Shown here: one piece after another, positions 25,180-43,985 of the stretch | Position numbering within the stretch: position 1 is the first letter of the stretch | Layout of the letters: the number at the start of each line of letters is the position of its first letter | DNA from: Elusimicrobia bacterium GWF2_62_30 | GTDB taxonomy: Bacteria; Elusimicrobiota; Elusimicrobia; Elusimicrobiales; UBA9959 | Direction of reading: 5' to 3' | Assembly (NCBI GenBank): GCA_001799995.1 | Contig: MGUK01000031.1 | Location: 1 to 52,258, forward strand | DNA length: 52,258 nucleotides | Program-made: the position numbers and the translations under genes | The notes under the pieces: model-generated | Databases searched by the model: none | Seen by the model: only the letters and a program-made list of their open reading frames with translations | Told to the model about the DNA's origin: nothing

Positions 25180-25272
25180 AAAGCCCGCGCCGCGCCGCCA
25201 GAGCGCCGGTTTCGGCCTCGCGTGCGCGCGCGCGACTAATATTTTTGTCGTTAATCTGTAACAGCGTGCTAC

Positions 25273-25300
25273 TTGACTTATAGCCAATAGGCCCTATAAT
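25273..25300 (+). promoter_or_regulatory. Promoter of the giant gene
   Basis: TTGACT (25273-25278), 16 bases, then a perfect TATAAT (25295-25300). Transcription should start near 25307, leaving a leader of about 178 bases before the GTG start. The stretch 25180-25272 has no gene and no clear terminator for the SIS gene. Confidence 0.8.
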
Positions 25301-25316
25301 ATAAGTACGGAAAGTC

Positions 25317-25441: not shown

Positions 25442-25484
25442 AACGAACGGTGTACGGTGAAGTTAACTTTATACGGGAGGTATT

Positions 25485-28400
25485 GTGCCGCAAAGGAAGG
25501 ATCCCGCTTCTTCCCCCGAACCTGGCCTCGCGCCCGGTGACGGGAGAACGAACGCCCCTGACGGGGCGGTCGGTCCTTTGCGCAGGTTCAGGGATCGCCT
25601 GCGCCGTTTCGGTTTCTGGCGCGTCCTGTGCGTCCTCCTCGTAAGCGTTCTCGTCCTGTCTTCCCTGCCGTCTTTCCTTTCCTCCGCCGGCCTCCATTTC
25701 GGGCTGGTTTCCGCCGTTAAAAGCAAGGTCAAAGAGCTGGCCGTAAAGGTCCGGGCCCACACGGCGCCCGGAACTCTTAACGCCATGACCGTATCCACCA
25801 CCGCCATCAGCCTTACCTGGAAGGACAATGCCAAAGATGAAACGGCCATAGCGATAGAGAGACGGGACCTTACCAATCAGAGAGCCTACAGGCAGGTGGC
25901 CGTGGCCCCCCCGGATACCATAAGCTACCTCGATACCGGCCTGGACCCGGGCGCTACTTATTTTTACCGCCTCAGGGCCCATACCGCCGCGGGCTGGTCG
26001 GATTATTCCAACGAAGCCTCCACCATGACCCGGCCCGTGCCGGGCCCCGGGGGGGAGACGCCCGGCGGCGACGGGGAGGACCCGGGCCCGATAGACCCGG
26101 ATTCCCCGGTGATCAGTTCCATCACGGTCATCCCGCTCGCCATCTCTACCGGCGGCGTTACCACCATAACCTGCTGGGCCTATTCCCCGGTAGGGCTGCA
26201 GCCCCTCACTTATAGCTGGACCGCCGTGGACGGAGGGGTAATAGCGGGGACCGGCAATTCCGTCACCTGGACCGCCCCGGCTTCGTCGGGTACTTACAGG
26301 GTGAGGCTCAAGGTGGGCGACGGCGGAGTGCATACCCCGGTAAAGCGCGACATCCTGGTCTACGTAGGCAACGATCCCGTGATCGTTTCCCTCGACGCGG
26401 AACCTTCTAAAATTTCCACCGGGACGGTCACCGAAGTGGTCTGTATTGCGACCACTTCCACGGGGGCCATGCTTTCCTATGCCTGGACCGCGGCCAGCGG
26501 GACTATCTCCGGCGTCGGCGCTTCCGTGAACTGGGCCGCCCCGGAATCCACGGGCACGTACATGATAAGCTGCGAGGTGACGGACTCCTTCGGCAGGAGC
26601 GCCTCCAGCACCACGCTCGTCCTGGTCAATAACCTGGAGATACTCTCGCTGACGGCCGCGCCGGTAGTCGTTTCCACCGGCGGGACTTCGGCCGTGAGCT
26701 GCGTTATCTTCGATCCGGGTACCGGGCCTATCACCTATACCTGGGACGTGGACGGCGGCACCATAACCGGCGCCGGCGCGTCCGTCACCTGGGAAGCCCC
26801 GCTTTCCACCGGCAGCTTTAAGATAAGCTGCGAGGTCACCGACGGGGTCGCAACGCTGATACGCGAGTTGGAGGTCTGGTCCGCCACGGGGCCGGTGATC
26901 ATGGAACTGACGGCCACCCCGACAAAAGTATCCACCGGGGCCGTCTCCGCCATAGTCTGCCTGGCTTCCTCCCCCGCCCAGGGCGAGCTTACTTACGTCT
27001 GGACGGCCGCGAGCGGCACTATAACGCAGACCGGCACCGCCGGCCTCGTGACCTGGGCGGCCCCGCTGTCCACCGGCATCTACCTGGTGAACATCGAAGT
27101 GACGGACTCGCGCGGCGTAAGCACGTCCAGTTCCGTGCCTGTGATGGTAAGCAACCTGCAGATAACCTCGCTGACGGCCATGCCGGCCGTGATCTCTACC
27201 GGGGCGGTTTCCGGCCTGGTCTGCACCGTCGCGGGCCCGGCCAACCCCGACCTGACCTATAAATGGACGTCGCTGGACGGGTTGATCAGCGGCACCGGCG
27301 CGTCCGTCACTTGGACGGCGCCCTTGACCGTCGGCAAGTACTCCGTAAAATGCGAAGTATCGGACGGGCTTGATATCGTGGAACGGGAAGTCGACGTCTG
27401 GGCGGCCACCGGGCCGGTCATAACCGTGATGCTGTCGGACGTAGTAAAGGTAGCCACCGGCGCGGTCGCGAACGTTATCTGCATCGCCTCGGCGCCCAGC
27501 GCCGGGCCGCTGGTGTATACCTGGACGGCCGCCAGCGGCACTTTAAGCGGCACCGGCTACACCGTTGCCTGGACGGCGCCGCTGACCACCGGCACTTATG
27601 TCCTGAACGTCCTGGTGGCCGATGAATACGGCGTAACGGCCTCCAGCTCCATTGCCCTGCTGGTCAACAACCTTTCTATAACTTCTCTCACGGCCCGGCC
27701 CGCCGTGGTTTCCACCGGCGCGGTTTCGGGCGTGGTCTGCCTGATCTCCGGCCCGGCCGACCCGAACCTGACCTACACCTGGACCCCTACGGGCGGGGAG
27801 ATAACCGGCACCGGGGCGTCGGTTACCTGGACCGCTCCGGAAGAGATCGGCAGGTACGCGATAAGGTGCGAAGTTACCGACGGCCAGGCGACGGTGGCGA
27901 AGGACGTGGATCTCTGGGCGGCCACGGGCCCGGTCATCATCTCCCTGACGGCCGGGGACGTGAAGCTGTCCACAGGCGCGGACACGGAGATAGTCTGTCT
28001 GGCCTCGGCGCCCAGCGCCGGGCCGCTAGTATATACCTGGACGGCCGCCAGCGGCACTATAACCGGCACCGGGGATACTATCAGCTGGACCGCGCCGCTG
28101 ACCACCGGCACTTATATCGTGAATATCCTGGTGGCGGACGAATTCGGCATAACGGTTTCCAGCGCCCTGGCCATGCTGGTCAACAACCTCTCCATCGCTT
28201 CGCTTACGGCCATGCCGGCCGTGGTGTACACCAGCAGCGAGGCGCAGGTGCTCTGTACCGTTACAGGTCCGGCCGGCCCGGACCTGGTCTATACGTGGAT
28301 GCCCTCGGGCGGGGAAATAACGGGCACCGGGGCGGCGGTGACCTGGACCGCGCCGGCGGAGATCGGCGCCTACGTTATAAAGTGCGAGGTCACCGACGGC

Positions 28401-31400
28401 ATAGCCACGGTGCAGCAGGACGTGAACGTCTGGTCGGCCACCGGCCCGGTGATAATTTCCCTCAGGCCCGACGAGGTGAAGCTCTCCACCGGCGCGGCCA
28501 CGGATATCGTCTGCCTGGCCTCCGCCCCCAGCTCCGGCCCGCTCACGTACGTGTGGACCGCCGCCAGCGGCACCATAAACGGCTCCGGCTCCGACGTGGA
28601 CTGGACGGCGCCGCTGTCCACCGGCGTTTACGTGATAAACGTAGATGTGACGGACATGTACGGGATAACGGTCTCCAGCTCGCTGTATATGCTGGTGAAC
28701 AACCTCTCGATAACCTCGCTTACGGCCATGCCGGCCGTGGTTTCCACCGGCGGGGTTTCCGGAGTGGTCTGCCTGGTCTCCGGGCCTACCAACCCGGACC
28801 TGACCTATACGTGGACGACGACGGACGGCGTGATAAACGGCACCGGCGCGTCGGTTACCTGGACCGCGCCGCTGGAGCCCGGCGCCCACTCGATAACGTG
28901 CGAGGTCACCGACGGCATCGCCACGGTGCAGGAAGAAGTGGACGTCTGGGCGGCCACCGGCCCGGTCATCATTTCCCTGCGCGCCGAATCCCTCAAGATC
29001 TCGACCGGGGCGGCTACGGACATAATCTGCCTGGCCTCCGCCCCCAGCTCCGGCCCGCTTTCGTACGTGTGGACGGCCGCGAGCGGCACTATAACGGGCA
29101 CCGGCAGTTCCGCGAGCTGGACGGCGCCGCTGTCCACCGGCATTTACTTCATAAGCGTTGAGGTGGAAGACCAATACAACGTCAAAGCGTCCAGCCAGCT
29201 GGCCATAGTCGTCAGCAACCTCGTTATAACGTCGCTTACGGCCATGCCCGCCGTGGTTTCCACGGGCGCGGCCTCCGGCGTGACCTGCCTGGTCTCGCCC
29301 GCCGGCCCCGGGCTTACCTATACCTGGACCACTACGGGGGGAGCCATCGCCGGCACCGGGGCGGAGGTCACCTGGACGGCGCCGCTGGAGATCGGCGGCT
29401 ACACGATAAAGTGCGATGTTTCCGACGGTCTCGCTACCCTGTCGCGCGAAGTGGACGTCTGGGCGGCCACCGGCCCGGTCATCATCTCCATACTGCCTGA
29501 AGAAGTGAAAATATCCACCGGCGCGGACACGGGCATAGTCTGCGTAGCCTCCGCGCCCAGCGCCGGGCCCCTCGTATATACCTGGACGTCGGCGAGCGGC
29601 ACCATAACCGGCACCCTCGGGGCCGCGAACTGGACGGCGCCGCTGTCCACCGGCATTTACATGATAACCTGCCAGGTGGAGGACGAGTTCCACGTGACGG
29701 CGTCCACCACTATCTCCATTGTGGTCAGCAACCTGGCCATAACGTCCCTTACGGCCATGCCGGGCGTGGTTTCCACCGGCGGGGTTTCCGGGGTGGTCTG
29801 TACCGTCCCGGTCACGGAAGGGGTTACCTATATCTGGACGCCTACCGGCGGCGTTATAACCGGCACCGGGGCGTCGGTCACCTGGACCGCGCCGCCGGAG
29901 ATAGGCACCTACACCATCAGGTGCGAAGTCACCGACGGCCTCGCCACGCTGCAGCAGCAGGTGGCCGTCTGGGCGGCCACCGGCCCGGTCATCATCTCCC
30001 TGACGGCCGATAACGTGATCCTGTCCACCGGGTCGGACACGGGCATCGTCTGCGTAGCCTCGGCGCCCGGCCCCGGCCCGCTTACTTACACCTGGACGGC
30101 CGCGAGCGGGACCGTGACCAGCACCCTGGGAAGTGCGAACTGGGCGGCGCCGCTGACCACCGGGACCTACCTGATAAGCCTCGATATCGAGGATGAATTC
30201 CATGTCGTAAAATCCACCACGCTCTCTATCGTGGTCAGCAACCTCGCCATGGCGCTTACCGCCTCGCCGACCGTGATCTCCACGAGCGAGGTTTCGGCCA
30301 TCACCTGCTCCGTCTCCGGCCAGAGCGCGACCGTTACCTATGACTGGACGGCCGCCAGCGGCACGATAACGGGGACCGGCGCGGTGGTGGACTGGACAGC
30401 GCCCGAGTCGAGCGGGACCTACATCGTGAACTGCGCGGTTTCCGACGGCGACGCCACGGTGCAGGCCCAGGTGAGCATTTTGGTGGCGACCGGCCCGGTG
30501 ATAATCTCGCTGACGGCGGACCGCCCGCAGCTCTCCACCGGCACCACCACCGAAGTGGTCTGCCTGGCAACGGCCCCCGGTTCCGGGAACCTTACCTACG
30601 TGTGGACGGCCGATAGCGGCACGATAAACGGCAGCGGGGAAGCCGTTGACTGGACCGCCCCCGACTCGACCGGCACTTACCAGATATCCTGCGAGGTGAC
30701 CGGCTCCCGCCCGGGCAGCGCGATACGCTCCATCAGCGTGCTGGTCAACAATCCGCCGGTCATCTCTTCTATCTCCGTGGTCCCGTCCGTAGTCGCGCCC
30801 GACGCCGCTTCCGTGCTGACCTGTTTCGCCCACGATCCGGACAACCCGGTGCTGGCTTATGAGTGGAATCCCGCGAGCGGCACGATAACGGGGACCGGCG
30901 CGGCGGTCAACTGGACGGCGCCGGCGGCCACCGGGACGTACACGGTCTCCTGCGTCGTTGCGGACGGGGAGGGCGGCACCGACAGCGAAACCGTGAGCAT
31001 CATCGTCAGCAGCCTTCCCATTATCCTCTCGCTGAACGCCGAGCCCAATACTATTTCCACCAGCGCCACCTCGGCCCTCCGCTGCGAAGCTTTGGCCGCG
31101 GCCGGCGGCGCCCTGACCTATAACTGGGCGGCGGGCAGCGGCACTATAACCGGCACCGGTTCCCAGGTGACCTGGTCGCCGCCGGTCTCCACGGGCGCCT
31201 ATACTATCTCCTGCGAGGTCGTGGAAACCGGGATCGGCAGCGTCACACGCTCGCTGAACGTGACGGTGAACAACCCGCCGGTGATCTCTTCCGTAACCGC
31301 GTCCCCGACGGTGGTGTCCACGGCCGCCGTCTCGGTCATAACGTGCCATGTCACCGACCCGGACAACCCGGTGCTGTTCTATACCTGGACCCCGTCGAGC

Positions 31401-34400
31401 GGCAGCATCAGCGGTACCGGCGCGGCGGTGAACTGGACGGCGCCCCTGTCCAGCGGCATCTATACGGTTACCTGCGAGGTTTCGGACGGGGAGGGCGGCG
31501 TCGACACCGGGTTCGTCACCGTTATCGTGAGCAGCATGCCGGTGATAGTCTCGCTGGACGCCTCTCCCGCAGAGATCTCCACCGGTACCTCTTCTGACTT
31601 AAGCTGCGACGCTTACGCCCCCGGCGACGTCCCCCTGGCCTATAACTGGATAGCAGGCAGCGGCACGATAACCGGCACCGGTTCCAACGTGACCTGGACT
31701 GCGCCGGTGTCCGTCGGCACGTTCACGATCACCTGCGAGGTGTCCGCTGACGGCAAATCCGCCAGCCGGAGCGTCAATATCGTGGTGAACAATCCTCCGA
31801 CGATACTGTCGCTTACCTCCGACCCGGCGATGGTCTCGATGGGGCATATTTCCACGGTCACCTGCGTCACCGCGGACCCCGGCAACCCCGCCTACATCTA
31901 TACCTGGGACAAGTCGTCCGGTACGCTGACGGGCAGCGGCACGGAAGTGTATTGGACGGCGCCCGATTCGAGCGGGACCTACATGATCTCCTGCGAGGTT
32001 TCGGACGGCGCCGGCGGGGACGCGCAGAAAACCCTCTTTATCACCGTCAGCAGCGTCCCGGTGATAGATTCCCTGGCGATCAGTCCCGTAGAAGTTTCCA
32101 CGGGTTCCCAGGCGAACCTGATCTGCACGGCAAGGGCGCCGGATAACGGGGCCCTGGCCTATAACTGGACCCCCGGCAGCGGCACCATCACCGGCACGGG
32201 TTCCCAGGTTTCCTGGACGGCGCCGGAGTCGACCGGCACCTATATGATCTCCTGCGCGGTTTCGGCGTGGGGCGAGACGGCGTCCCAGAGCGTTAACGTG
32301 CTGGTGAACAACCCGCCGTTCATCTCCTCCATGACCGCGGACCCGGAGACCGTCTTCCCGCTCAATATCTCCACCGTCTCCTGCTGGGCGCATGACCCCG
32401 ATAACCCGGTGCTGACCTACGTGTGGACGGTTTCTTCGGGCGCCTACACGGAGTTCGCCCCCGGGCGGATAGAATGGACGGCCCCGGCCTCGACCGGCAC
32501 GTATAACATCTCCTGCCAGGCGTCCGACGGAGAGGGCGGCAGCGCGGAGCAGGACGTCGATATCGAGGTGAGCAGCCTGCCGGTGATAATGAACATTTCG
32601 GCCTTCCCGGACGAGGTCTCGACCGGGACGGCGACCGCGCTGCAATGCGACGCCTATTCTCCCGGGAACACCGCTTTGTCCTACGACTGGCAGGCCGGCA
32701 GCGGCACCTTGAGCGGGAGCGGCGCGGCCGTGAGCTGGATGGCGCCGGTTTCTACCGGGACCTATACGATAAACTGCCGCGTTACCGACGCCCAGGGAAG
32801 CATTACCGGCAGCGTGAACGTGCTCGTCAACAATCCGCCGGTGATAAGTTCCGTCACCGCGGCCCCCGCCGTTGTTTCGCCGCTGGCCGTCTCCACCGTG
32901 ACCTGCGCGGCGCAGGACCCGGACAATGCCGTGCTGTTCTATTCCTGGACGCTGGACGGCGGAACTTACGGCACGCTGGCCCCCGGGCAGATCCGGTGGA
33001 CGGCCCCGCTGTCCACCGGGGCGTATAACCTCCTTTGCACCGCCGCGGACGGGGAAGGCGGCGAAGACCAGGGCAGCGTAGAGGTCATCGTCAGCAGCCT
33101 GCCCATCATAAGGTCCCTGACCAGCGAGCCGAACTCCGTATCTACCGGCGGCGCCGCCAGCCTGCACTGCGTAGCCCTCGCGCCGGACGACGAGGAGCTT
33201 TCCTATAACTGGGTAGTGGGCAGCGGCACTATCACCGGCACCGGCGCCGACGTGACCTGGACCGCCCCCGAATCCACCGGCACATACGTCATCCGCTGCG
33301 AAGTTTCCGCGGGCGGCCAGATGGTGGCCGGCGGAGTCCCCGTGCTGGTGAACAATCCGCCGGTCATCGACGGCATGTTCGCCGATCCGGCGAGTCTCAG
33401 GCCTTCCGGGATTTCCACGGTCACCTGCTCCGCGCATGACCCCGACAATTTCGTGCTGACGTACGGCTGGCAGGTTAGCGGCGGCACTTATTTCGACCTG
33501 GGCGGCGGTCAGGCGAGATGGGAAGCCCCCGCAGCGACCGGCAGCTATACGGTGAGCTGCGAAGTGACCGACGGCGAAGGCGGCCGGGACACCGACAGCA
33601 TGGTTGTCCCGGTGAGCAACCTGCCGGTCATCAGCGCCCTCGTGGCCGACCCGGCCGAGGTCTCCACCGGGGCGACGGCCGCGCTCTCCTGCACGGCCTC
33701 CGATCCCGACAGCGACCCGCTGACTTATACCTGGACGCCGGGCAGCGGCACAATAACCGGTACCGGCTCGGACGTGGTCTGGACCGCGCCCCTTTCTACG
33801 GGCACCTACATGATCTACTGTCAGGTCAGCGACGGGAACGGCGGTTCCGCCCAGGAGAGCGTGAACGTGCTGGTGAACAACCCGCCGGTGATAAGTTCGC
33901 TGGTCGCGCTTCCGCCGGTGATCTCCAGCGGCGAGGTTTCCAACATCACCTGCTCCGCGGACGATCCGGATAACACGGTGCTGAACTATGAGTGGGCCGC
34001 CGGCAGCGGCTCTATAACCGGCACCGGGGCGACGATCGCCTGGACCGCCCCCGAATCCTCCGGCACGTACATGGTAGGGTGTACCGTTTCCGACGGCGAG
34101 GGCGGGGAGGACCAGCAGAGCGTGCAGGTCATCGTCAGCAGCCTACCCGTGATAGTTTCCCTGACGGCCGACCCGGAGCAGGTGTCTACCGGGACCGCGG
34201 CCGACTTGAACTGCGAGGCTTATGACCCGGCGGGGGGCACCCCGGTTTACAACTGGTCGGCGGCCAGCGGCACGGTGAACGGCACCGGCTCCGCCGCGAT
34301 CTGGACGGCGCCCCTGACCACCGGCACATACCATATTACCTGCCAGGTGGTCGGAGGGAACGGCGGCAGCGTGCAGCAGGACGTCGTCATCCTGGTGAAC

Positions 34401-37400
34401 AACCCGCCGGTCATCTCCTCGCTTATCGCGGTCCCCGCGGTACTGCTGCCGCTGGAGATCTCCACCTTGACCTGTACGGCCACCGATCCGGACAACCCGG
34501 TCATCTATACCTGGACCGCGGGCAGCGGCACCATAAGCGGCCTCGGCGCCGAGGTCTACTGGCGGGCGCCGGCCTCTACCGGGACCTATACGATAGGGTG
34601 CGAGGTTTCCGACGGCGAGGGCGGGACCGACTACCGGCCCGTGAACGTAGCTGTCCGAAATAACGCGCCGCCTCAGGTCTCGCTCATTAGCGCCTCGCCG
34701 CAGGAGATCAGCGCTTTCACCAACTCCCTGATCACGTGCCTGGCTTCCGACCCGGACAGCGACCCGCTGAGCTATACCTGGACGGCGGCCAGCGGCACCC
34801 TGGCCGGTACCGGTTCGGACGTGGTCTGGACCGCCCCCGTTTCCACCGGTCTCTACACGATAAACTGCGTGGTCTCGGACGCGTTCAGCGGGGTATCCAC
34901 CAGCGTCGTCGTGAACGTCAACAACCCGCCGGTGATAAATTCGCTCACGGCGGACCCGGATTTCATCTCGCCGCTGGCCATTTCCACCCTGACCTGTTCC
35001 GCTTCGGACCCGGACACTCCCGTGCTGTTTTATCTCTGGACCGCTTCGAGCGGCACGGTGATCGGCACCGGGTATCAAGTGCGCTGGCAGGCGCCCGTGT
35101 CCAGCGGGGCTTATGTCGTGAACTGCGAAGTCTCCGACGGCGGCTCCGGCAGCGTGGACCAGAACGTCAATCTTTCGGTCAGCAGCGTGCCGGTGATAAA
35201 TCTGCTGTCCGTAGCTCCGCCCCAGGTCTCCACCGGGGCGCAGGCGGCCCTGATCTGCCAGGCCATCGCCCCGGACGACCTGGTCCCGGACTATACCTGG
35301 CTGCCGGCGAGCGGGACGATAACCGGCACCGGCACGAACGTCAGCTGGACCGCCCCCGACTCCACCGGCACGTATTTCATAACCTGCCAGGCCAGCGCCG
35401 GAGGCGGGTCGGTGAGCGCCAGCACCAGCGTGCTGGTCAACAATCCCCCGGTCATAGCTTCCCTGACCACCGACCCGGCGCGCGTTTCGCCGCTGCGTGT
35501 TTCCACGGTGACCTGCTCGGCCCATGACCCGGACAACCCCGTGCTTGACTACGCGTGGAACTTCACGGGCGGGACCTACGAGGAGACCGGCACCGTCGGC
35601 CAGGTGCGGTGGACTGCGCCGGACTCTACCGGTTCTTACACTGCAGGCTGCACGGTCTCGGACGGCGAGGGCGGCACGGCTCAGCAGAATACCGGGATCA
35701 TCGTGGCCAGCATGCCCGTCATCCTATCCCTGATCGCGTCGCCGGAGATGGTGTCCACCGGGGCGGCCGCGGGCCTGAACTGCGCGGCCCTCGTTTCCGA
35801 CAACGTGGAACCGCTCTATACCTGGACGCCCGGCAGCGGGACCATAACCGGTACCGGGGCCAGCGTTTCCTGGACCGCGCCTGTTTCGACCGGGACCTAC
35901 ATGATATTCTGCGAGGTTTCCGCCGACGGTAAAACGGTGAGCGCCAGCGTGAACGTGCTCGTCAATAACCCGCCGGTGATCGCGTCCCTGGAGGCCGCAC
36001 CGCCCAACGTGCAGCCGACGAACATCTCCACCGTGACCTGCACGGCCCACGACCCGGACAACTCGGTGATCTCCTACGTCTGGAGCGTCAGCACGGGCGC
36101 TTATGCGGACCTGGGCGGCGGCCAGATAAGGTGGACGGCCCCGGCCTCCACCGGGTCCTGCAATGTTACCTGCCGGGTGTCCGACGGCGAGGGCGGAGAA
36201 GCGCAGCAAAGCATTTCCATCACCATCAACAGCGTGCCCGACATCCAGTCCCTGACCGCCGCTCCGCCCACCGTCACCTCGGGCGGGACCTCGGTGCTGA
36301 CCTGCACCGCCGTAGACCCCGAAGGCGGCCTGCTCGCGTATTCCTGGCTGGCCGCCAGCGGGACGATAAACGGCAACACTTTCGAGGAAGACTGGACGGC
36401 GCCGGCCGCTACCGGGGCGTATATCGTGGCCTGCCAGGTCACGGACGGCTACAATGTCGTCACCGCCAGCGTGGTGGTGAGCGTCAACAATCCGCCGGTG
36501 ATAACCAGCACGGGCGTGGCCCCGGGAATGGTCTCTCCCCTGCACGTCTCCACGCTTACCTGCTCGGCCACGGACCCCGACGACCCCGTGCTGACCTACA
36601 CCTGGACCCCCGCCGCCGGGACCATAGACGGCACCGGCACGGAGGTTTACTGGACCGCCCCGGCTTCCACCGGCAGCTACACGATCCTCCTTGAAGTCTC
36701 CGACGGGGAGAATATCGACGAGGCCACCCTGACGGTTACCGTGAGCAGCCTGCCGTCCATAACGTCCCTGACCGCCGCCCCGGGCACCGTTTCCACCGGC
36801 ACCAGCGCCGGCCTCAGCTGCGCAGCCGTCGCGCCGGATGACGCCGCGCTGGACTACCTGTGGATCCCCGGCAGCGGCACGGTCACGGGGACCGGCGCGA
36901 ACGTCCAGTGGACGGCCCCGGAGTCGACCGGCACCTATATGATCACCTGCCGGGTCACCTCCGGGGGGGAGAGCGTGGAACAGAGCGTTAACGTGTTCGT
37001 GAACAATCCGCCTGTAATTGATTCGCTTACCGGGGCGCCGCCGGCTCTCGCGCCGCTGGAGATCTCCACCATTACCTGCGCGGCCCACGACCCGGACAAT
37101 CCCGTGCTTATCTATAACTGGTCGGCCGCCAGCGGCACCATCAGCGGTACGGGCTCCGAGATCTACTGGACCGCGCCCGCGTCCACCGCGGTCTACGTAA
37201 TCAGCTGCACGGTCTCCGACGGCGAGGGCGGGGAGGCCTCCTCCAGCGTCAATATCACGGTAAGGCTCAATGAACCCCCGGCGATAGGCTCCCTGACGGC
37301 GTTCCCCGTCAACATCAGTACGAACGCCGCTTCCGCCATCACCTGCCTCGCCACGGACCCGGACAACGATCCCCTGGCCTATGTCTGGAGCGCCGGCAGC

Positions 37401-40400
37401 GGGACCATAACGGGCACCGGCAATGTCGTTACCTGGACCCCGCCGGACACGGTCGGGCTCTATATGATAACCTGCGACGTTTCGGACGGTTTCGGCGGAG
37501 CTGCTTCCAGCACCACGGTGGTCGCGGTCAACAATCCGCCGCTGATCACCTCTATGCTCCCGGACCCCGACCTGGTCTCGCCGCTCGCCATCTCTTCCCT
37601 GACCTGCTCGGCCACCGACCCGGACGGGGACCCGATGACCTTTGACTGGACCGCCACCAGCGGCACGATAACCGGTACGGCGGGGGCGGCGGACTGGACC
37701 GCGCCGGACGCGACCGGGACCTATTCTATCACCTGCACGGTGTCCGACGACCAGGGCGGCAGCGCGCAGGCGAGCCGGCAGATAATCGTGAGCAGCCTGC
37801 CGCTCATAACCGAGTTGCGCGCGATGCCGGTGACCATCTCCAGCGGCGGCACGGTCGACCTGACCTGCGAGGCGAGGGCTCCCGACAAACTCGTCCCCGT
37901 GTACGTCTGGACGCCGAGCGGCGGCACGATAATCGGCACCGGCGCCAGCGTGGACTGGACCGCGCCCGTTGCCACCGGAGTTTACCTGATAACCTGCGAG
38001 GTGCAGGCGGGCGCCGTTTCCGCCAGCTCCAGTACCAGCGTGCAGGTGAACAACGTCCCCGTCCTGGATTCCCTCACCGCGGAGCCGGACATGGTCTCGC
38101 CGCTGGCCGTTTCCACGGTGACCTGCGCCGCCCATGACCCGGACGGCGGCGAACTGACCTACGACTGGTCCTCCAGCAGCGGCAGCTACGGCACCATAGC
38201 CGCGGGGCAGCTGAGGTGGGCCGCCCCGGCCGCTACCGGCACCTATATGGTCGGCTGCACCGTCTCCGACGGGGCGGGAGGGGAGGACGCCGACAGCCTG
38301 CAGATCCGGGTCAGCAGCCTGCCCATTATCAATTCCCTGACCGTCAGCTCCGCTGCGGTTTCCACCGGCGTGCCGGTGAACCTGGAATGTTCCGCCCTCG
38401 CGCCGGATAACGAGGCGATAACCTATAACTGGCTGGCCGGCAGCGGCACTGTGACGGGCACCGGCGCCGCCGTAGTCTGGACCTCGCCGCTGACCACCGG
38501 CACTTACACGCTCGGCTGCGAGGTCTCCGCGGGCGGTCAGACCGTGGTCAGGAGCACTAATATCCTCGTCAATAACCCGCCGGTCATAACCACCATGACC
38601 GCGGTCCCGGAACTTGTGGACCTGCTGGGCGTTTCCACCATAACCTGCACCGCCCAGGACCCGGACGGCGTCCCTCTCACTTACGGCTGGGCCGTTACGA
38701 CCGGCACCTATTCCGACCTCGGCGGGGGCCAGATAAGATGGACGGCCCCGGCCTCGACCGTCACCTGCACCGTGACCTGTACCGTTTCCGACGGCGGCGG
38801 CGGGACCGACCAGGAGACCGTGACGGTGTCCGCGAGAGGCAACGAGGCTCCCGTGATAGCGTCCATCTCGGCCGCCCCCGCCACGGTCCCGTCGGGAGGG
38901 GCCGCGAGCATAACCTGCACGGCTTCCGACTCCGACGGGGACCCGCTGACCTATTCCTGGTCGGCCGGCAGCGGGACTATCACGGGCACCGGGCTGAATA
39001 TCAGCTGGGCTTCTCCGGCCTCGACCGGGACGTATACGATAAACTGCGAGGTGAACGACGGCCGGGGCGGCGTCGTATCGGGCAGCGTAGCGGTGCCGGT
39101 CAACAACCCGCCCTCCATTTCGGCGCTGACCGCGGCGCCGGACTTCGTCTCGCCGCTGCGGGTCTCCACGATAACCTGCACGGCTACCGATCCCGATACG
39201 CCGGTGCTCAATTATACGTGGGACGCCGCGAGCGGCACGATAAGCGGTACCGGGGCCGAGGCCTACTGGACCGCGCCCGCGGCCACCGGCTCTTACACGA
39301 TAAGCTGCGAGGTCTCCGACGGTGACGGCGGGTCGGCGCAGCTCAGCGAGACGGTGCTTGTCAGCAGCGTCCCGAGGGTGGACTGGATAATAGCGGCGCC
39401 CACAAAGATCTCTTCGGCGTCCGTCGCCACGCTTGAGATCCAGGCGCAGGGGCCGGATGAGGGCGGGCTCTCGTACACCTGGTCCGCCGCCAGCGGGACC
39501 GTTTCCGGCACCGGGGAGCAGGCCGCCTGGACCGCGCCGGACTCCACCGGCACCTATATGATCTCCTGCCAGGTCACCGCCCTGCCCGGAGGAGGGGTGG
39601 TGACGGTCAGCACCACCGTGCTGGTGAACAATCCCCCCGTGGTGCAGTCCCTGTCCGGCAACCCGGAGCGGGTCTCGCCGCTGCGTGTTTCCACGTTGAC
39701 CTGCACGGCTTCGGACCCGGACAACAGCCTGCTTTATTACAGCTGGTCGGCCCTTTACGGTACCATTGCGGGCACCGGGGCCCAGGTCGACTGGACCGCG
39801 CCGGACTCCACCGGGGTCTATACCGTGAACTGCGAAGTTTCCGACGGGGAAGGCGGCAGCAGCTCCGCCAACCTGCCCCTGACGGTCAGCAGCATTCCGT
39901 ATATCACTTCCGTTACGCCGTCGCCCACGAAGACCTCCACCGGCACCTCCGTGAACCTGGCCTGCGTGGCCGGCGCGTCCGACAACGATACGCTGTCCTA
40001 TGACTGGATAATCGGCAGCGGCACCATAACCGGTACCGGGGCGACGGTAAGCTGGCTGGCGCCCGCTTCCACAGGGACCTATCCGATAGCCTGCGCGGTC
40101 ACGGCGGTGCCCGGCGGCGGCCGCGCCCAGGCGGCCACCAGCGTGCTGGTTAACAACCCGCCCGTAATAGAGTCCCTGGCGGCCGTTCCCTCCATTCTTT
40201 CCACCGGGGCGGTTTCCGTCGTGACCTGCACCGCCGACGATCCCGACAACGAGGTGCTGGATTACAGCTGGACCGCCGCCAGCGGCACCATAACCGGCAC
40301 CGGGTCCGTCATCAGCTGGACGGCGCCGTCGTCGAGCGGCTCATTCAGCATCGGCTGCTCGGTTTCGGACGGCGAAGGCGGCCTGGCGCAGCAGTACACG

Positions 40401-42926
40401 CAGGTAACGGTCAACGTCAACGGCGAGCCGGTCATCTCTTCGCTCACGCCGGACGACACGTATGTCCCTACCAGCGGGCAGACGGGTATCACCTGCGCGG
40501 CTGCCGACCCGGACGACCCCATATTGGCCTACACCTGGACGCCCGGCAGCGGCACGATAACCGGCACCGGGGCGTACGTGACCTGGGACGCGCCCGCCTC
40601 CACCGGCACCTATATGATCCGCTGCGAGGTCACGGACGGGCACAGCGGGTATGACACGGAGACCGTAAATATCCTGGTCAACAACCCGCCGGCCATAACC
40701 TATATGGACACCCAGCCGTCCCTGCTGCTGCCTTCCGCCGTTTCCACCGTCACCTGCACGGCCTCGGACCCGGACAACCCCGTCATCTACGGCTGGTCGG
40801 CCACGGGCGGCAGCACGGAAACTATTTCGGCGACCCAGATCCGCTGGAGAGCCCCGTCCTCCACCGGGACCTACTCCGTCACCTGCACCGCTTCCGACGG
40901 GGAAGGCGGCAGCGACCAGCGCACTCTGCCGGTCACGGTGAGCAGCATGCCCGTTATCCTCGGGCTCGACGCCAGCCCGGCCACGGTCTCCACCGGCGCG
41001 CTTTCGGCCATCAGCTGCGACGCGGAGATGCCGGGCGGCGGCGCGCTGACCTATGACTGGACCGCCGCGAGCGGCACCATTACCGGTACCGGGGCCGGCG
41101 TTACCTGGGCCGCCCCGAACGCCACCGGCACGTACGTGGTCGGCTGCGCGGTCTCGGCCGGCGCCGGCACCGTCTCGCGCAACGTCCTGTTGTACGTCAA
41201 CAACCAGCCGGTCATAACCGCCCTGACGGCGGTCCCGACGGCCGTTTCGCCCTCGGCCATTTCCACGATAACCTGCACCGCAAACGACCCGGATAACGGG
41301 GCGCTGACCTATAACTGGTCTTATACCGGCGGGAGTTTCGGCACTATCGCCGCCGGGCAGATACGCTGGACCGCGCCCGCCTCCACCGGCGCCTACAGCA
41401 TAACCTGCCAGGTGACCGACCCCAACAACGGCAGCGCGCAGAACAGCGTCGGCGTGACGGTCAGCAGCACGCCGGTCATACTATCGCTCAGCGCCTCTCC
41501 CGCCAGCGTCCTGGCCGGCGGGCAGTCGGCGGTGACCTGCTCCGCCCTGGACCCGGACGATGACGACACTCTGTCCTACGGCTGGTCGGCGGCCAGCGGC
41601 ACCATAACGGGCACCGGCGCAGCCGTGACCTGGACCTCGCCGGCCTCCAGCGGCACCTATACGGTCGGCTGCACCGTCTCCGACGGGCACGGCGGCGTTT
41701 CCGTGCGCAGCGTCCCTATCTTCGTGGGCGGCGTCATCCTGTGGACCAAGCAGCTGGGCACTACCTCCGCGGAGGAAGGCACGGCCGTGGGGCTCGACAG
41801 TTCCGGCGACATCTATATCGCGGGCATGACGGCGGGGTCGCTGCAGGGTACGAACAAAGGCGCCAACGACCTGTTCCTGACCAAGTACGGTACGGACGGC
41901 ACCAACCCGTGGACCGTGCAGCTGGGCACTACCACCAACGACGTGGCCCGCGGCCTGGCGGTCTACCATTCCAGCCACGTTTTCGTCGTGGGTGAGGCCG
42001 CTGGCCCGCTGGATGATAACACCCATTTCGGCGATCTGGATTTCTTCCTGGTGAAATACAGCACGGCCGGCGTGAAGGCTTGGAGCAGGCAGTTCGGCAC
42101 CTCCGTGAACGAGGTCGCCTACGGCGTGGCGGTGGACACTTCAGGCAGCGTCTATATAGCCGGGTATACCCTCGGGGACCTGGACGGGAACGGCAACCAG
42201 GGACAGGAGGACGCTTTCCTGGCCAAGTATAACGCCTCCGGCACCCAGGTGTGGATGAAGCAGCTCGGCACCACGGGCAAGGATTACGCGCGCGGCGTGG
42301 CGGTGGACCCTTCCGGCAATATCGTGATCGCCGGGTACACCGACGCCGCCCTCGAGGGGTCCAGCCTCGGCGAAGACGATATCTTCATCGCCAAGTATAA
42401 CCAGGCCGGCGACAATATCTGGCTTGAGCAGTACGGGACCGGCTCCGGCGAGCAGGCTTACGGCGTGGCCGTGGACACTTCCGGGAACGTTTACGTGACC
42501 GGCTACACCTACGGCGATTTCGGCGCCGCCAACCTCGGGCAGCAGGACGCTTTCCTGGCCAAATACAACAGCAGCGGCGCTTCCGTCTGGGTTAGACAGC
42601 TGGGAAGCACTATCTACGATTATGGCCGGGCTATAGCGGTCGATGTCACCGGCAACGTTTTCTACACGGGTAATACTTACGGCAGCTTCGACGGCAACAC
42701 CCCCGCGGGCGACTGGGACGTCATACTGGTCAAGTACGATTCTTCCGGGACCAAGATCTGGTCGAAACAGTTCGGTACCGTCACCTTTGCGGAGTCAGGC
42801 CAGGGCGTGGCGGTGGACCCCACAGGCAATGTGTTCACCACCGGCTACACGATGGGCAGTCTCGAAGGGAATACGAACCCCAATCCCGGCTCGGCGGATA
42901 TCTTCCTGACCAAGCACGTGCAATAG
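25485..42926 (+). CDS. Giant exported Ig-repeat protein with FnIII and SBBP propeller
   Basis: This encodes 5,813 residues, roughly 0.6 MDa. The N terminus is 42 polar, Arg/Pro-rich residues, then one hydrophobic segment (about 43-61, FWRVLCVLLVSVLVLSSL), either a long signal peptide or an anchor. A fibronectin type III domain (about 94-182) has TLTWKD-like and GLDPGATYFYRLRAHT motifs. Sixty Ig/PKD-like repeats fill 208-5416. The C terminus (5417-5813) has seven repeats of the SBBP type, such as DTSGNVYVTGYT and FLAKYNSSG, enough for one seven-bladed propeller. I see no LPXTG, RTX repeat or sorting domain. GTG 25485 follows GGGAGG by four bases. Surface adhesion or a stalk-like structure is inferred. 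The frame is open throughout; repeat copy number depends on assembly. Confidence 0.9.
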   Translation: MPQRKDPASSPEPGLAPGDGRTNAPDGAVGPLRRFRDRLRRFGFWRVLCVLLVSVLVLSSLPSFLSSAGLHFGLVSAVKSKVKELAVKVRAHTAPGTLNAMTVSTTAISLTWKDNAKDETAIAIERRDLTNQRAYRQVAVAPPDTISYLDTGLDPGATYFYRLRAHTAAGWSDYSNEASTMTRPVPGPGGETPGGDGEDPGPIDPDSPVISSITVIPLAISTGGVTTITCWAYSPVGLQPLTYSWTAVDGGVIAGTGNSVTWTAPASSGTYRVRLKVGDGGVHTPVKRDILVYVGNDPVIVSLDAEPSKISTGTVTEVVCIATTSTGAMLSYAWTAASGTISGVGASVNWAAPESTGTYMISCEVTDSFGRSASSTTLVLVNNLEILSLTAAPVVVSTGGTSAVSCVIFDPGTGPITYTWDVDGGTITGAGASVTWEAPLSTGSFKISCEVTDGVATLIRELEVWSATGPVIMELTATPTKVSTGAVSAIVCLASSPAQGELTYVWTAASGTITQTGTAGLVTWAAPLSTGIYLVNIEVTDSRGVSTSSSVPVMVSNLQITSLTAMPAVISTGAVSGLVCTVAGPANPDLTYKWTSLDGLISGTGASVTWTAPLTVGKYSVKCEVSDGLDIVEREVDVWAATGPVITVMLSDVVKVATGAVANVICIASAPSAGPLVYTWTAASGTLSGTGYTVAWTAPLTTGTYVLNVLVADEYGVTASSSIALLVNNLSITSLTARPAVVSTGAVSGVVCLISGPADPNLTYTWTPTGGEITGTGASVTWTAPEEIGRYAIRCEVTDGQATVAKDVDLWAATGPVIISLTAGDVKLSTGADTEIVCLASAPSAGPLVYTWTAASGTITGTGDTISWTAPLTTGTYIVNILVADEFGITVSSALAMLVNNLSIASLTAMPAVVYTSSEAQVLCTVTGPAGPDLVYTWMPSGGEITGTGAAVTWTAPAEIGAYVIKCEVTDGIATVQQDVNVWSATGPVIISLRPDEVKLSTGAATDIVCLASAPSSGPLTYVWTAASGTINGSGSDVDWTAPLSTGVYVINVDVTDMYGITVSSSLYMLVNNLSITSLTAMPAVVSTGGVSGVVCLVSGPTNPDLTYTWTTTDGVINGTGASVTWTAPLEPGAHSITCEVTDGIATVQEEVDVWAATGPVIISLRAESLKISTGAATDIICLASAPSSGPLSYVWTAASGTITGTGSSASWTAPLSTGIYFISVEVEDQYNVKASSQLAIVVSNLVITSLTAMPAVVSTGAASGVTCLVSPAGPGLTYTWTTTGGAIAGTGAEVTWTAPLEIGGYTIKCDVSDGLATLSREVDVWAATGPVIISILPEEVKISTGADTGIVCVASAPSAGPLVYTWTSASGTITGTLGAANWTAPLSTGIYMITCQVEDEFHVTASTTISIVVSNLAITSLTAMPGVVSTGGVSGVVCTVPVTEGVTYIWTPTGGVITGTGASVTWTAPPEIGTYTIRCEVTDGLATLQQQVAVWAATGPVIISLTADNVILSTGSDTGIVCVASAPGPGPLTYTWTAASGTVTSTLGSANWAAPLTTGTYLISLDIEDEFHVVKSTTLSIVVSNLAMALTASPTVISTSEVSAITCSVSGQSATVTYDWTAASGTITGTGAVVDWTAPESSGTYIVNCAVSDGDATVQAQVSILVATGPVIISLTADRPQLSTGTTTEVVCLATAPGSGNLTYVWTADSGTINGSGEAVDWTAPDSTGTYQISCEVTGSRPGSAIRSISVLVNNPPVISSISVVPSVVAPDAASVLTCFAHDPDNPVLAYEWNPASGTITGTGAAVNWTAPAATGTYTVSCVVADGEGGTDSETVSIIVSSLPIILSLNAEPNTISTSATSALRCEALAAAGGALTYNWAAGSGTITGTGSQVTWSPPVSTGAYTISCEVVETGIGSVTRSLNVTVNNPPVISSVTASPTVVSTAAVSVITCHVTDPDNPVLFYTWTPSSGSISGTGAAVNWTAPLSSGIYTVTCEVSDGEGGVDTGFVTVIVSSMPVIVSLDASPAEISTGTSSDLSCDAYAPGDVPLAYNWIAGSGTITGTGSNVTWTAPVSVGTFTITCEVSADGKSASRSVNIVVNNPPTILSLTSDPAMVSMGHISTVTCVTADPGNPAYIYTWDKSSGTLTGSGTEVYWTAPDSSGTYMISCEVSDGAGGDAQKTLFITVSSVPVIDSLAISPVEVSTGSQANLICTARAPDNGALAYNWTPGSGTITGTGSQVSWTAPESTGTYMISCAVSAWGETASQSVNVLVNNPPFISSMTADPETVFPLNISTVSCWAHDPDNPVLTYVWTVSSGAYTEFAPGRIEWTAPASTGTYNISCQASDGEGGSAEQDVDIEVSSLPVIMNISAFPDEVSTGTATALQCDAYSPGNTALSYDWQAGSGTLSGSGAAVSWMAPVSTGTYTINCRVTDAQGSITGSVNVLVNNPPVISSVTAAPAVVSPLAVSTVTCAAQDPDNAVLFYSWTLDGGTYGTLAPGQIRWTAPLSTGAYNLLCTAADGEGGEDQGSVEVIVSSLPIIRSLTSEPNSVSTGGAASLHCVALAPDDEELSYNWVVGSGTITGTGADVTWTAPESTGTYVIRCEVSAGGQMVAGGVPVLVNNPPVIDGMFADPASLRPSGISTVTCSAHDPDNFVLTYGWQVSGGTYFDLGGGQARWEAPAATGSYTVSCEVTDGEGGRDTDSMVVPVSNLPVISALVADPAEVSTGATAALSCTASDPDSDPLTYTWTPGSGTITGTGSDVVWTAPLSTGTYMIYCQVSDGNGGSAQESVNVLVNNPPVISSLVALPPVISSGEVSNITCSADDPDNTVLNYEWAAGSGSITGTGATIAWTAPESSGTYMVGCTVSDGEGGEDQQSVQVIVSSLPVIVSLTADPEQVSTGTAADLNCEAYDPAGGTPVYNWSAASGTVNGTGSAAIWTAPLTTGTYHITCQVVGGNGGSVQQDVVILVNNPPVISSLIAVPAVLLPLEISTLTCTATDPDNPVIYTWTAGSGTISGLGAEVYWRAPASTGTYTIGCEVSDGEGGTDYRPVNVAVRNNAPPQVSLISASPQEISAFTNSLITCLASDPDSDPLSYTWTAASGTLAGTGSDVVWTAPVSTGLYTINCVVSDAFSGVSTSVVVNVNNPPVINSLTADPDFISPLAISTLTCSASDPDTPVLFYLWTASSGTVIGTGYQVRWQAPVSSGAYVVNCEVSDGGSGSVDQNVNLSVSSVPVINLLSVAPPQVSTGAQAALICQAIAPDDLVPDYTWLPASGTITGTGTNVSWTAPDSTGTYFITCQASAGGGSVSASTSVLVNNPPVIASLTTDPARVSPLRVSTVTCSAHDPDNPVLDYAWNFTGGTYEETGTVGQVRWTAPDSTGSYTAGCTVSDGEGGTAQQNTGIIVASMPVILSLIASPEMVSTGAAAGLNCAALVSDNVEPLYTWTPGSGTITGTGASVSWTAPVSTGTYMIFCEVSADGKTVSASVNVLVNNPPVIASLEAAPPNVQPTNISTVTCTAHDPDNSVISYVWSVSTGAYADLGGGQIRWTAPASTGSCNVTCRVSDGEGGEAQQSISITINSVPDIQSLTAAPPTVTSGGTSVLTCTAVDPEGGLLAYSWLAASGTINGNTFEEDWTAPAATGAYIVACQVTDGYNVVTASVVVSVNNPPVITSTGVAPGMVSPLHVSTLTCSATDPDDPVLTYTWTPAAGTIDGTGTEVYWTAPASTGSYTILLEVSDGENIDEATLTVTVSSLPSITSLTAAPGTVSTGTSAGLSCAAVAPDDAALDYLWIPGSGTVTGTGANVQWTAPESTGTYMITCRVTSGGESVEQSVNVFVNNPPVIDSLTGAPPALAPLEISTITCAAHDPDNPVLIYNWSAASGTISGTGSEIYWTAPASTAVYVISCTVSDGEGGEASSSVNITVRLNEPPAIGSLTAFPVNISTNAASAITCLATDPDNDPLAYVWSAGSGTITGTGNVVTWTPPDTVGLYMITCDVSDGFGGAASSTTVVAVNNPPLITSMLPDPDLVSPLAISSLTCSATDPDGDPMTFDWTATSGTITGTAGAADWTAPDATGTYSITCTVSDDQGGSAQASRQIIVSSLPLITELRAMPVTISSGGTVDLTCEARAPDKLVPVYVWTPSGGTIIGTGASVDWTAPVATGVYLITCEVQAGAVSASSSTSVQVNNVPVLDSLTAEPDMVSPLAVSTVTCAAHDPDGGELTYDWSSSSGSYGTIAAGQLRWAAPAATGTYMVGCTVSDGAGGEDADSLQIRVSSLPIINSLTVSSAAVSTGVPVNLECSALAPDNEAITYNWLAGSGTVTGTGAAVVWTSPLTTGTYTLGCEVSAGGQTVVRSTNILVNNPPVITTMTAVPELVDLLGVSTITCTAQDPDGVPLTYGWAVTTGTYSDLGGGQIRWTAPASTVTCTVTCTVSDGGGGTDQETVTVSARGNEAPVIASISAAPATVPSGGAASITCTASDSDGDPLTYSWSAGSGTITGTGLNISWASPASTGTYTINCEVNDGRGGVVSGSVAVPVNNPPSISALTAAPDFVSPLRVSTITCTATDPDTPVLNYTWDAASGTISGTGAEAYWTAPAATGSYTISCEVSDGDGGSAQLSETVLVSSVPRVDWIIAAPTKISSASVATLEIQAQGPDEGGLSYTWSAASGTVSGTGEQAAWTAPDSTGTYMISCQVTALPGGGVVTVSTTVLVNNPPVVQSLSGNPERVSPLRVSTLTCTASDPDNSLLYYSWSALYGTIAGTGAQVDWTAPDSTGVYTVNCEVSDGEGGSSSANLPLTVSSIPYITSVTPSPTKTSTGTSVNLACVAGASDNDTLSYDWIIGSGTITGTGATVSWLAPASTGTYPIACAVTAVPGGGRAQAATSVLVNNPPVIESLAAVPSILSTGAVSVVTCTADDPDNEVLDYSWTAASGTITGTGSVISWTAPSSSGSFSIGCSVSDGEGGLAQQYTQVTVNVNGEPVISSLTPDDTYVPTSGQTGITCAAADPDDPILAYTWTPGSGTITGTGAYVTWDAPASTGTYMIRCEVTDGHSGYDTETVNILVNNPPAITYMDTQPSLLLPSAVSTVTCTASDPDNPVIYGWSATGGSTETISATQIRWRAPSSTGTYSVTCTASDGEGGSDQRTLPVTVSSMPVILGLDASPATVSTGALSAISCDAEMPGGGALTYDWTAASGTITGTGAGVTWAAPNATGTYVVGCAVSAGAGTVSRNVLLYVNNQPVITALTAVPTAVSPSAISTITCTANDPDNGALTYNWSYTGGSFGTIAAGQIRWTAPASTGAYSITCQVTDPNNGSAQNSVGVTVSSTPVILSLSASPASVLAGGQSAVTCSALDPDDDDTLSYGWSAASGTITGTGAAVTWTSPASSGTYTVGCTVSDGHGGVSVRSVPIFVGGVILWTKQLGTTSAEEGTAVGLDSSGDIYIAGMTAGSLQGTNKGANDLFLTKYGTDGTNPWTVQLGTTTNDVARGLAVYHSSHVFVVGEAAGPLDDNTHFGDLDFFLVKYSTAGVKAWSRQFGTSVNEVAYGVAVDTSGSVYIAGYTLGDLDGNGNQGQEDAFLAKYNASGTQVWMKQLGTTGKDYARGVAVDPSGNIVIAGYTDAALEGSSLGEDDIFIAKYNQAGDNIWLEQYGTGSGEQAYGVAVDTSGNVYVTGYTYGDFGAANLGQQDAFLAKYNSSGASVWVRQLGSTIYDYGRAIAVDVTGNVFYTGNTYGSFDGNTPAGDWDVILVKYDSSGTKIWSKQFGTVTFAESGQGVAVDPTGNVFTTGYTMGSLEGNTNPNPGSADIFLTKHVQ
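26106..41732 (+). repeat. Sixty tandem Ig/PKD-like repeats of about 87 residues
   Basis: Within the giant gene, 60 units average about 260 bases. A typical unit reads PVISSLTA, then VSTG, a Cys, DPDNPVLTYTW, GTITGTG, WTAP, STGTY, a second Cys, EVSDG and a linker. Two linkers alternate. In units 1-17 they are VNN/VSN and WAATG; from unit 18 they are VNNP and VSSL. The module is therefore a pair of domains (about 175 residues) repeated some 30 times. Variant linkers (RNNAP, RLNEP, RGNEA, NVNGE) end units 33, 43, 49 and 55. GTITGTG is coded by near-identical DNA in most units. Confidence 0.9.
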
Positions 42927-42962: not shown

Positions 42963-43985
42963 ATGAAACGGACGGCATATCTTATCCTGGCTTTGCTGAC
43001 GCTGCCCGCGGCGCTTACCGCGGGCAACCTGAGCGTCGGCCTGGGGTACCCCTATGTCTCCGCGAAATACGACGGCGGGAAGCTCTCCGCCGAGGCCAGG
43101 ATGGTGACCGGCGGCGGCGTGCAGGTCTACGCCGGGCGCGGGTACTGGAACTTTCACCGCTCGTCCAAGCTCAAGGGCTTCACCGGCCTGGAGGCCGGCT
43201 ATATCCGCTTCGACACGCTCAGCATGAAAGGCACCGGCTACGAAGCCTCGCTGTTCATCGGCGGGGAATATCCCGTGGCAGACAACTTCTACGTGCTGAT
43301 GGATTTCGCCCCTACGCTGATAGTGCTCAGGCACGACCTCTACACCGACGTGCGGGTGGGGGGCATGGAGTACGTGGTCAACCTGGGTTTCTATTACCGC
43401 TTCGGCAAGGTGCAGGGCAAGGCCGCGCCGGAGCCGGATAAAAAGACTCCTGAGCAACAAGCGCCTGAGAGTAAGGCGGCCGCGGAGGCCCTGCCTGCGG
43501 CGCCGGTCGAGGTAAGCACGGCGGCGGCGCCCGCCGCGGCTCCGCCGCAGGTCAGTACCGCCGCCGCGCCGTCGCCGGAAGCCGTTATCGACGAGCTGAT
43601 CAAACAGCTGGATTCCAAGAACTGGAAGGAGCGCAGGAAGGCCGCCTTTGAACTTGGCAAGCTGAAGTCTCCCCGGGCCGCGGAGCCCCTTATCGGGCTC
43701 CTCGACGACAAGAACGAAAGGGTGCGCGGCGTGGCCGCGCTGGCTCTGGGCAGGCTGGACGATCCCCGCGCCCTGCTCCCCCTTATGCTCACTCTCGCCG
43801 ACCCGTCCTCCTATGTGCGCGCTTCCGTGGCGAAGAGCCTCGGGCAGCTCAAGGACAAGCGCGCCCTGATGGACCTGGAGGACGCGGCCAAGGACCCCTC
43901 CGAAGAGGTGCGCAAGGCCGCGGAAGAAGCGATCAAGAAAGTAAAGGCGGCGCCCCAGGCGAAGCCTGGGGGCAAGAAGAATTAG
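42963..43985 (+). CDS. Beta-barrel/HEAT-repeat fusion protein, exported
   Basis: This 340-residue protein has a signal peptide (1 to about 20, MKRTAYLILALLTLPAALTA). Residues 21-150 are rich in alternating Gly/aromatic strands and end in VVNLGFYYRFGK, which looks like a small outer-membrane beta-barrel. An Ala/Pro-rich linker (about 151-205) carries two near-identical VSTAAAP segments. Four HEAT repeats follow (about 206-325), such as KERRKAAFELGKLKSPRAAEPL and NERVRGVAALALGRLDDPRALLPL, then a basic tail. If the barrel sits in the outer membrane, the HEAT part would be periplasmic. It starts 36 bases after the giant gene, so joint expression and a role in its display are plausible but inferred. 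Confidence 0.8.
   Translation: MKRTAYLILALLTLPAALTAGNLSVGLGYPYVSAKYDGGKLSAEARMVTGGGVQVYAGRGYWNFHRSSKLKGFTGLEAGYIRFDTLSMKGTGYEASLFIGGEYPVADNFYVLMDFAPTLIVLRHDLYTDVRVGGMEYVVNLGFYYRFGKVQGKAAPEPDKKTPEQQAPESKAAAEALPAAPVEVSTAAAPAAAPPQVSTAAAPSPEAVIDELIKQLDSKNWKERRKAAFELGKLKSPRAAEPLIGLLDDKNERVRGVAALALGRLDDPRALLPLMLTLADPSSYVRASVAKSLGQLKDKRALMDLEDAAKDPSEEVRKAAEEAIKKVKAAPQAKPGGKKN

Follow-up and report, generated by a model that had tools for sequence, protein, structure and literature searches.

The window, a stretch of 52,258 nucleotides, is one entire contig (C31) of the draft genome of Elusimicrobia bacterium GWF2_62_30 (G000; 2.91 Mb, 99 contigs, 84% complete). It encodes a giant exoprotein and, starting 36 nt past the giant's stop codon, a small partner protein (Table 1). 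The sequence-only reading had described a frame open for 17.4 kb, and the ORF list bears this out, with a strong codon-position bias (GC of 0.55, 0.58 and 0.85 at positions 1, 2 and 3). A consensus scan of the region returned four promoter-like sites against a shuffle mean of 0.1. A riboswitch or structured leader 5' of the giant gene was considered and rejected, with no Rfam match at the gathering score, a best sub-threshold E of 0.2 and a folding z of -0.36 against shuffles. Residues 69-5813 would form a strongly acidic protein of about 580 kDa, with a computed pI of 4.05, which is the program's lower limit. Elsewhere in the window (955-23265) lie histidine degradation genes (formiminotransferase-cyclodeaminase, aromatic amino acid lyase, urocanase and an imidazolonepropionase-type amidohydrolase), near hrcA-grpE-dnaK-dnaJ.

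Table 1. Features of the giant exoprotein gene and its partner in the window
Feature	Positions	Strand	Basis
Sigma-70-type promoter-like site, TTGACT-16-TATAAT	25273..25300	+	Consensus scan, 11/12 positions
Shine-Dalgarno-like GGGAGG, 4 nt 5' of the GTG start	25475..25480	+	Direct sequence reading
Giant exoprotein gene, 5,813 aa	25485..42926	+	ORF list; GTG start
Predicted signal peptide with long basic n-region, residues 1-68	25485..25688	+	By eye: hydrophobic run, then SSA followed by GLHFG; similar in G008 and G010
N-terminal motif GLHFGLVSAVKSKVKELAVKV, residues 69-89, presumed amphipathic helix	25689..25751	+	Alignment of 14 exoproteins; profile searches
Fibronectin type III (FnIII) domain, residues 94-179	25764..26021	+	Pfam fn3, E 6e-8
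60 Ig/PKD-like units, residues 210-5417, A and B types alternating	26112..41735	+	Pfam matches, W-x-x-P motifs
Seven-blade SBBP beta-propeller, residues 5418-5813	41736..42923	+	SBBP matches, structure model
Partner gene, 340 aa: predicted signal peptide, barrel-like domain, Pro/Ala linker, HEAT repeats	42963..43985	+	
Small (~130 aa) outer-membrane-type beta-barrel-like domain of the partner	43020..43409	+	Family alignments A6/A8
HEAT-repeat domain of the partner, residues 205-329	43575..43949	+	Pfam HEAT_2, E 3e-25

The architecture proposed for the giant from the letters alone (FnIII, 60 Ig-like domains and a terminal seven-blade propeller) was borne out, with FN3, PKD/Ig and SBBP profiles all matched in the translation. 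W-x-x-P motifs number 60, recurring every 84-89 residues without a gap over residues 262-5383, and PKD, Big_9, PKD_4 and Ig_2 score above the Pfam cut-off in each half of the protein, which by sequence places the giant among bacterial Ig/PKD repeat proteins. Two cysteines are present in 49 of the 60 units, and these pairs suggest disulphides. At the C terminus, six stretches pass the SBBP profile (PF06739) individually, with E 2e-43 for the half protein, and a model of residues 5331-5813 contains 28 propeller strands, that is, seven four-strand blades (pLDDT 92.0, pTM 0.86). By these repeats and this model, the giant is an SBBP beta-propeller protein. The propeller matches CylK, in which the SBBP seven-blade fold has been solved (7fh6/7ron); CylK is a Friedel-Crafts alkylating enzyme according to the entry titles, whereas the propeller of the giant caps a stalk of 60 Ig units and is given no catalytic role here.

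Given that the longest exact direct repeat within the giant gene is 38 bp, that the highest pairwise DNA identity between Ig units is 79% and that TRF found no tandem array of Ig-unit length in the gene, short-read collapse of the array is unlikely, and the count of 60 units is independent of long identical repeats. When the window's units were compared with those of the relatives G008, G010 and G002 and of locus L241, 57 of the 60 had their best match inside their own array. Among G008 units, the closest to window units 58, 59 and 60 were units 11, 12 and 13, in order, the last three of its C-terminal contig. Because most units are closest to their own array and the final three correspond to those of G008, growth or homogenisation of the array within lineages is probable, the head-adjacent end being conserved.

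At the N terminus, the sequence-only reading had placed a membrane segment. This needs correction: the sequence directly behind the hydrophobic run is well conserved in relatives, and the segment is therefore read as a signal peptide with a long n-region, possibly cleaved, as judged by eye, between SSA and GLHFG. The conserved sequence, with the consensus G[LF]xxG[LMR]xxAVKxxVxKLDxKV, directly follows the predicted signal peptide in 14 aligned exoproteins, three of which are giant N termini. Its hydrophobic positions are spaced 4-3-4, so it probably forms an amphipathic helix. Apart from the motif, the carriers, which are predicted exported proteins within the phylum, show little resemblance to one another; most adjoin a small barrel-like gene, and the regions C-terminal to the motif include FnIII, PQQ propellers, RCC1, SBBP propellers and metallophosphatase-like domains. 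The window giant matches the motif profile, of which it is itself a member, at E 2.8e-19. The loci fetched for motif discovery had been found mostly by the partner protein and in two cases by the N terminus of the giant. As the motif was first recognised at barrel loci, these initial cases say nothing on linkage, and only the distant and reciprocal searches described below are independent. Three proteins sitting directly before a barrel gene (L220, L223 and L224; G089:C13, C41 and C33) carry a motif look-alike, e.g. LHFGAANAVRKKINELKEKI, at their extreme C terminus; these forms and the weaker ones seen by eye at L199, L225, L229, L230, L231 and L232 were left uncounted.

In the partner protein, AlphaFold2 (AF2) predicted the HEAT block (residues 201-330) with pLDDT 82-97 and the barrel part, from an alignment of five sequences, with pLDDT below 50. 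NCBIfam matches of the partner fall within the HEAT region (residues 205-326). The ~130-aa domain has the alternating strands and aromatic end of a small barrel. No Pfam family matched the window barrel; across the barrel family, OMP_b-brl matched 25 of the 85 members at E<=0.01, the window member not being among them. The beta-type alternation of the family exceeded that of all 500 column permutations, a result that fits any beta protein and not membrane barrels specifically. Against solved structures the family gave no significant match (best E 0.48); the two PDB matches, at E ~0.5, were to the autotransporter EstA and to OmpW, both outer-membrane proteins. We therefore call the domain barrel-like and regard an outer-membrane location as presumptive. 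The window partner scores E 1.8e-47 against the barrel profile, to which it contributes. Among eight other partners scanned, three carry CsgG/TolB_N-like domains, two TPR and one HEAT, while two have nothing named; such domains would be compatible with a periplasmic side. Omp85 matches in the window's own genome, on contigs other than that of the window, agree with an outer-membrane-bearing bacterium.

The association of motif and barrel was followed at three distances. In the genus (32 genomes), which itself contributes sequences to both profiles, there were 28 matches to the barrel profile. Of these, 23 were strong (E<1e-40) and came from 16 genomes, and five were weak paralogs (E 1e-23 to 1e-27), for which no motif neighbour was found. 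With the motif profile, 22 matches were strong (E<2e-11), all within 15 of the 16 strong-barrel genomes, and two were weak. A motif gene lies 0-107 nt downstream, on the same strand, of 18 of the 23 strong barrels; four of the others are barrel-HEAT genes behind a giant or propeller exoprotein, and the last, in G006, borders a contig end. Together, the 18 barrel-adjacent genes and four giant N termini make up the 22 strong motif matches. Outside the genus, 57 of 79 barrel matches, mostly the stronger ones, were searched with a motif profile made from genus sequences alone (60 loci were fetched and three genus paralogs set aside). An adjacent motif ORF was found at 25 of the 57 loci at E<=0.01 and at 35 at E<=1, against a single non-adjacent match and no match at all in reversed ORFs or in 19 control stretches around other giant or SBBP proteins; an iterated profile reached 33 of the 57. 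In 22 of the 57, four of them at the end of the stretch, no motif neighbour was detected even at E<=1.

The reciprocal search started from the motif in the sample of 294 phylum genomes that had supplied the barrel matches. The sample is drawn from a larger group and only part of the first-look candidates were scored, so that the counts are lower bounds. There were at least 60 motif matches, 43 with a barrel match ending no more than 600 nt upstream and five with one up to 3.2 kb downstream, giving 48 of 60 with an adjacent barrel (35 of 43 outside the genus). Twelve of the 60 have no barrel in either range: four are giant N termini, including that of the window, whose barrel lies past the array or on another contig, and eight, all among the 43 non-genus matches, have no barrel match nearby and are unexplained. 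At the level of genomes, a barrel was present in 29 of the 30 with the motif (the exception is G035) and in 15 of the 264 others (Fisher p 6e-28, kinship ignored). The motif is thus linked to a barrel gene across Elusimicrobiota. As read from its sequence, the window carries such a cassette, with a motif behind the predicted signal peptide and an adjacent gene of the barrel family.

Cassettes of a motif exoprotein and a barrel occur with 0, 1, 2, 6 and 60 Ig units. Besides the order with the motif gene downstream of the barrel, there is a second one, with the exoprotein before the barrel as in the window (L240, L241, L242, L244, L245, L246 and L251). In this group, L246 combines the motif with an RCC1 propeller and no Ig unit; in L242 and L251 the motif comes with a single Ig unit and a repeat head not named a propeller by Pfam; L244 likewise joins the motif to one Ig unit, with no Pfam match in its C-terminal part; L240 has one Ig unit and L245 two, in both cases late in the chain, the latter with a repeat head like that of L242; and L241 has six Ig units and an RCC1 propeller. 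The window, with 60 units and an SBBP head, stands at the far end. In gene order these small cassettes come nearest to the giant; their motif scores are weak (E 0.003-0.87). Judging from these sequences, the giant appears to be a lengthened-stalk member of the motif-barrel cassette family. The earlier proposal of a filament-like stalk carrying a head is supported to the extent that relatives have a similar cassette with far fewer Ig units; surface location and binding are what we infer beyond that.

Homologues of the giant in the closest genomes are 48-52% identical to it at the C terminus and 49-56% at the N terminus (G008 and G010), with 36% in G002 over an interrupted frame. The partner gene adjoins the homologous propeller in G008, G002 and G010, propeller first. 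The Ig arrays of these three genomes reach contig ends, and their lengths are therefore lower bounds. The N-terminal homologue of G002 (L076; G002:C212, 11845-14766) is broken by a stop or frame change, which may be real or sequencing-derived. G010 also has, on contig C58, a lone SBBP propeller that lacks Ig units and has a signal peptide of its own, followed by a barrel-HEAT gene; a motif-like stretch can be seen in it by eye only and is absent from the profile matches. At the equivalent site of G004 (L077; G004:C98, 2237-3091), the giant and most of the barrel are absent, and the promoter side and the HEAT part are kept. Sequence homologous to the window extends from the SIS gene through 25067-25303, breaks off just past the promoter-like site and picks up again at 43325, within the barrel. 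In sequence, it looks like the giant and the barrel were lost together, leaving a HEAT remnant.

No known sorting signal had been visible in the letters, and the scans agree: NCBIfam models named no sorting domain in residues 1-305 or 5331-5813, and in the latter the sole matches at E<=0.01 were to an SBBP lipoprotein model and the delta-60 repeat, with none to a type B C-terminal domain (CTD). A type A (Por_Secre_tail-type) CTD was not found on the giant either, and of the 16 T9SS-type CTD matches in its own genome (E<=0.001) none lies in the window contig. Neither the giant nor the partner has two-partner secretion or autotransporter domains (TPS, translocator barrel and POTRA-Omp85; Pfam, E<=0.001), and the RTX repeats of LapA-kind T1SS adhesins gave no Pfam match in the giant at E<=0.001. 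On contig C95 of the same genome (114565-117696), a 2,241-aa frame has three collinear matches to the SprA model TIGR04189 (E 1.8e-25, below the curated cut-off); this model was used because PF14349 (SprA_N) had no match in this genome and was silent in control genomes too. Taken with the 16 CTD matches, this SprA-like frame makes a divergent T9SS-like system in Elusimicrobiota possible. At another locus (L250; G033:C77, 639-5277), a 1,180-aa protein with a T9SS-like C-terminal match adjoins a PorV/PorQ family protein (NF033709) and lies upstream of a motif-family barrel.

We lean towards a reading in which the giant is a stalked binding protein of the cell surface, kept at the outer membrane through its cognate barrel. 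Counting against this are the low-confidence barrel model, the distant barrels for which no motif neighbour was detected, and the HEAT part that G004 retains where giant and intact barrel are missing. A predicted Sec-type signal peptide would take it out of the cytoplasm, after which the ~21-residue motif at the mature N terminus would dock on the small outer-membrane barrel encoded next door, the HEAT domain of the partner lying on the periplasmic side. At ~4 nm per Ig domain, the FnIII domain and the 60 Ig units, most with a Cys pair, may form a stalk of ~200-250 nm, with the SBBP propeller as a head that would bind a target. We infer the docking, the surface exposure and the ligand binding from this arrangement. 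The sequence-only reading had left both export and anchoring open; for anchoring, the motif together with the barrel gene, which lies beyond the coordinates of that reading, is now a candidate. A barrel of eight-strand size could hardly be the exporter of a 580 kDa protein, and for translocation across the outer membrane the remote SprA-like protein may be considered. In broader terms, Elusimicrobiota may possess a surface-display system made of a cleavage-exposed tag of ~21 residues and a dedicated small outer-membrane barrel, with exchangeable cargo, such as propellers and phosphatase-like enzymes, on stalks of 0-60 Ig units and the giant as the longest cargo here, a proposal for and against which we regard the case as evenly balanced.

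The closest known counterpart lies in the T9SS of Bacteroidota, where, according to PMC9143113, SprB, a repetitive protein of 669 kDa, is anchored by the adjacent barrel SprF, and SprB-SprF and PG1035-PorP are pairs of a type B CTD cargo and a PorP-like barrel. Common to both are a very large repetitive surface protein with its own adjacent outer-membrane barrel gene, here predicted, and, in some species, the presence of multiple cargo-barrel pairs in one genome. The cargo tag in the window, in contrast, is N-terminal, behind the signal peptide, and not a C-terminal domain, and the barrel domain of ~130 aa matches no PorP family of Pfam, none being among the six Pfam families that match any of the 85 barrel members (E<=0.01). 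Lacking a C-terminal sorting domain in the scans and a PorP-family barrel, the giant and its partner seem, by sequence, to fall outside the SprB-SprF type. T9SS-like export through the remote SprA homologue, with the barrel acting as shuttle or anchor as SprF and PorP do, would overlap with the barrel-held stalk and add the missing export step. The SprA-like frame, the 16 CTD matches and the precedent of a protein as large as SprB speak for it, the absence of either CTD type in the scans, the missing PorP match and the N-terminal place of the motif against it, and we treat it as a tentative possibility, somewhat on the doubtful side.

The main rival to a barrel-held surface protein is that motif proteins associate with barrels on the periplasmic side, at the inner face of the outer membrane, so that the exoproteins, the giant included, would never be displayed. 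The periplasm-typical domains on some partner barrels (HEAT, CsgG/TolB_N-like and TPR) suit this, as does a giant for which the scans gave no known outer-membrane translocation signal; we nevertheless find it unlikely, since the periplasm is far narrower than an extended 60-Ig chain is long and heads and stalk lengths vary in the manner of adhesins. An anchor in the inner membrane, formed by an uncleaved hydrophobic segment and making the barrel gene a mere neighbour, could explain the long basic n-region and a hydrophobic run without a classical AXA site. It is quite improbable, however, given that the conserved sequence behind that run also stands behind the short, ordinary-looking signal peptides of small exoproteins and that the barrel linkage holds phylum-wide. 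As for a broken, unexpressed or misassembled repeat locus, the empty G004 site, the arrays that run to contig ends in G008, G010 and G002 and the interrupted G002 frame would be expected of one, but a reading frame free of stops over its whole length, with biased codon positions and promoter- and SD-like sites, Ig units too diverged for collapse and relatives conserved at both termini make it very improbable.

Reports describe huge proteins as common in Elusimicrobiota and in phyla near it, PMC11573180 and PMC12057145 calling Elusimicrobiota rich in them; a giant gene is in itself nothing new there. The giant shares its phylum and a size above 5,000 aa with the proteins of PMC11573180; that source, as far as accessible, treats their prevalence, and the window adds a candidate anchoring cassette. 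In the literature searched, which covered few subscription journals and preprints, the motif-barrel cassette has no description and appears to be undescribed, and in the portions of the sources available we met no account of how the giant proteins of the phylum are anchored. A tag with a cognate barrel gene makes such anchoring testable, allows many surface proteins of a largely uncultured phylum to be predicted from sequence alone, and offers, as a natural series, stalks of graded length on a single type of anchor.

Other giant frames, of 3,000-8,000 aa, exist in the genus, in G000:C84 (from 91026; L078), G008:C31 (L084), G010:C43 (a frame of 8,028 aa), G024:C48 (L090) and G028:C54 (L091). 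In the stretches fetched, the N-terminal motif was not found in other genus giants, and several of those whose C terminus lies within the stretch have, by eye, an FlgD/T9SS-like tail (...ASGVYFLLTY...KLAVIK). Such giants, e.g. that of G008:C31 (5,701 aa), are also predicted exported giants, encoded in the same organisms; they differ from the window giant in having this tail, for which profile matches come from the window's own genome only, and no detected motif.
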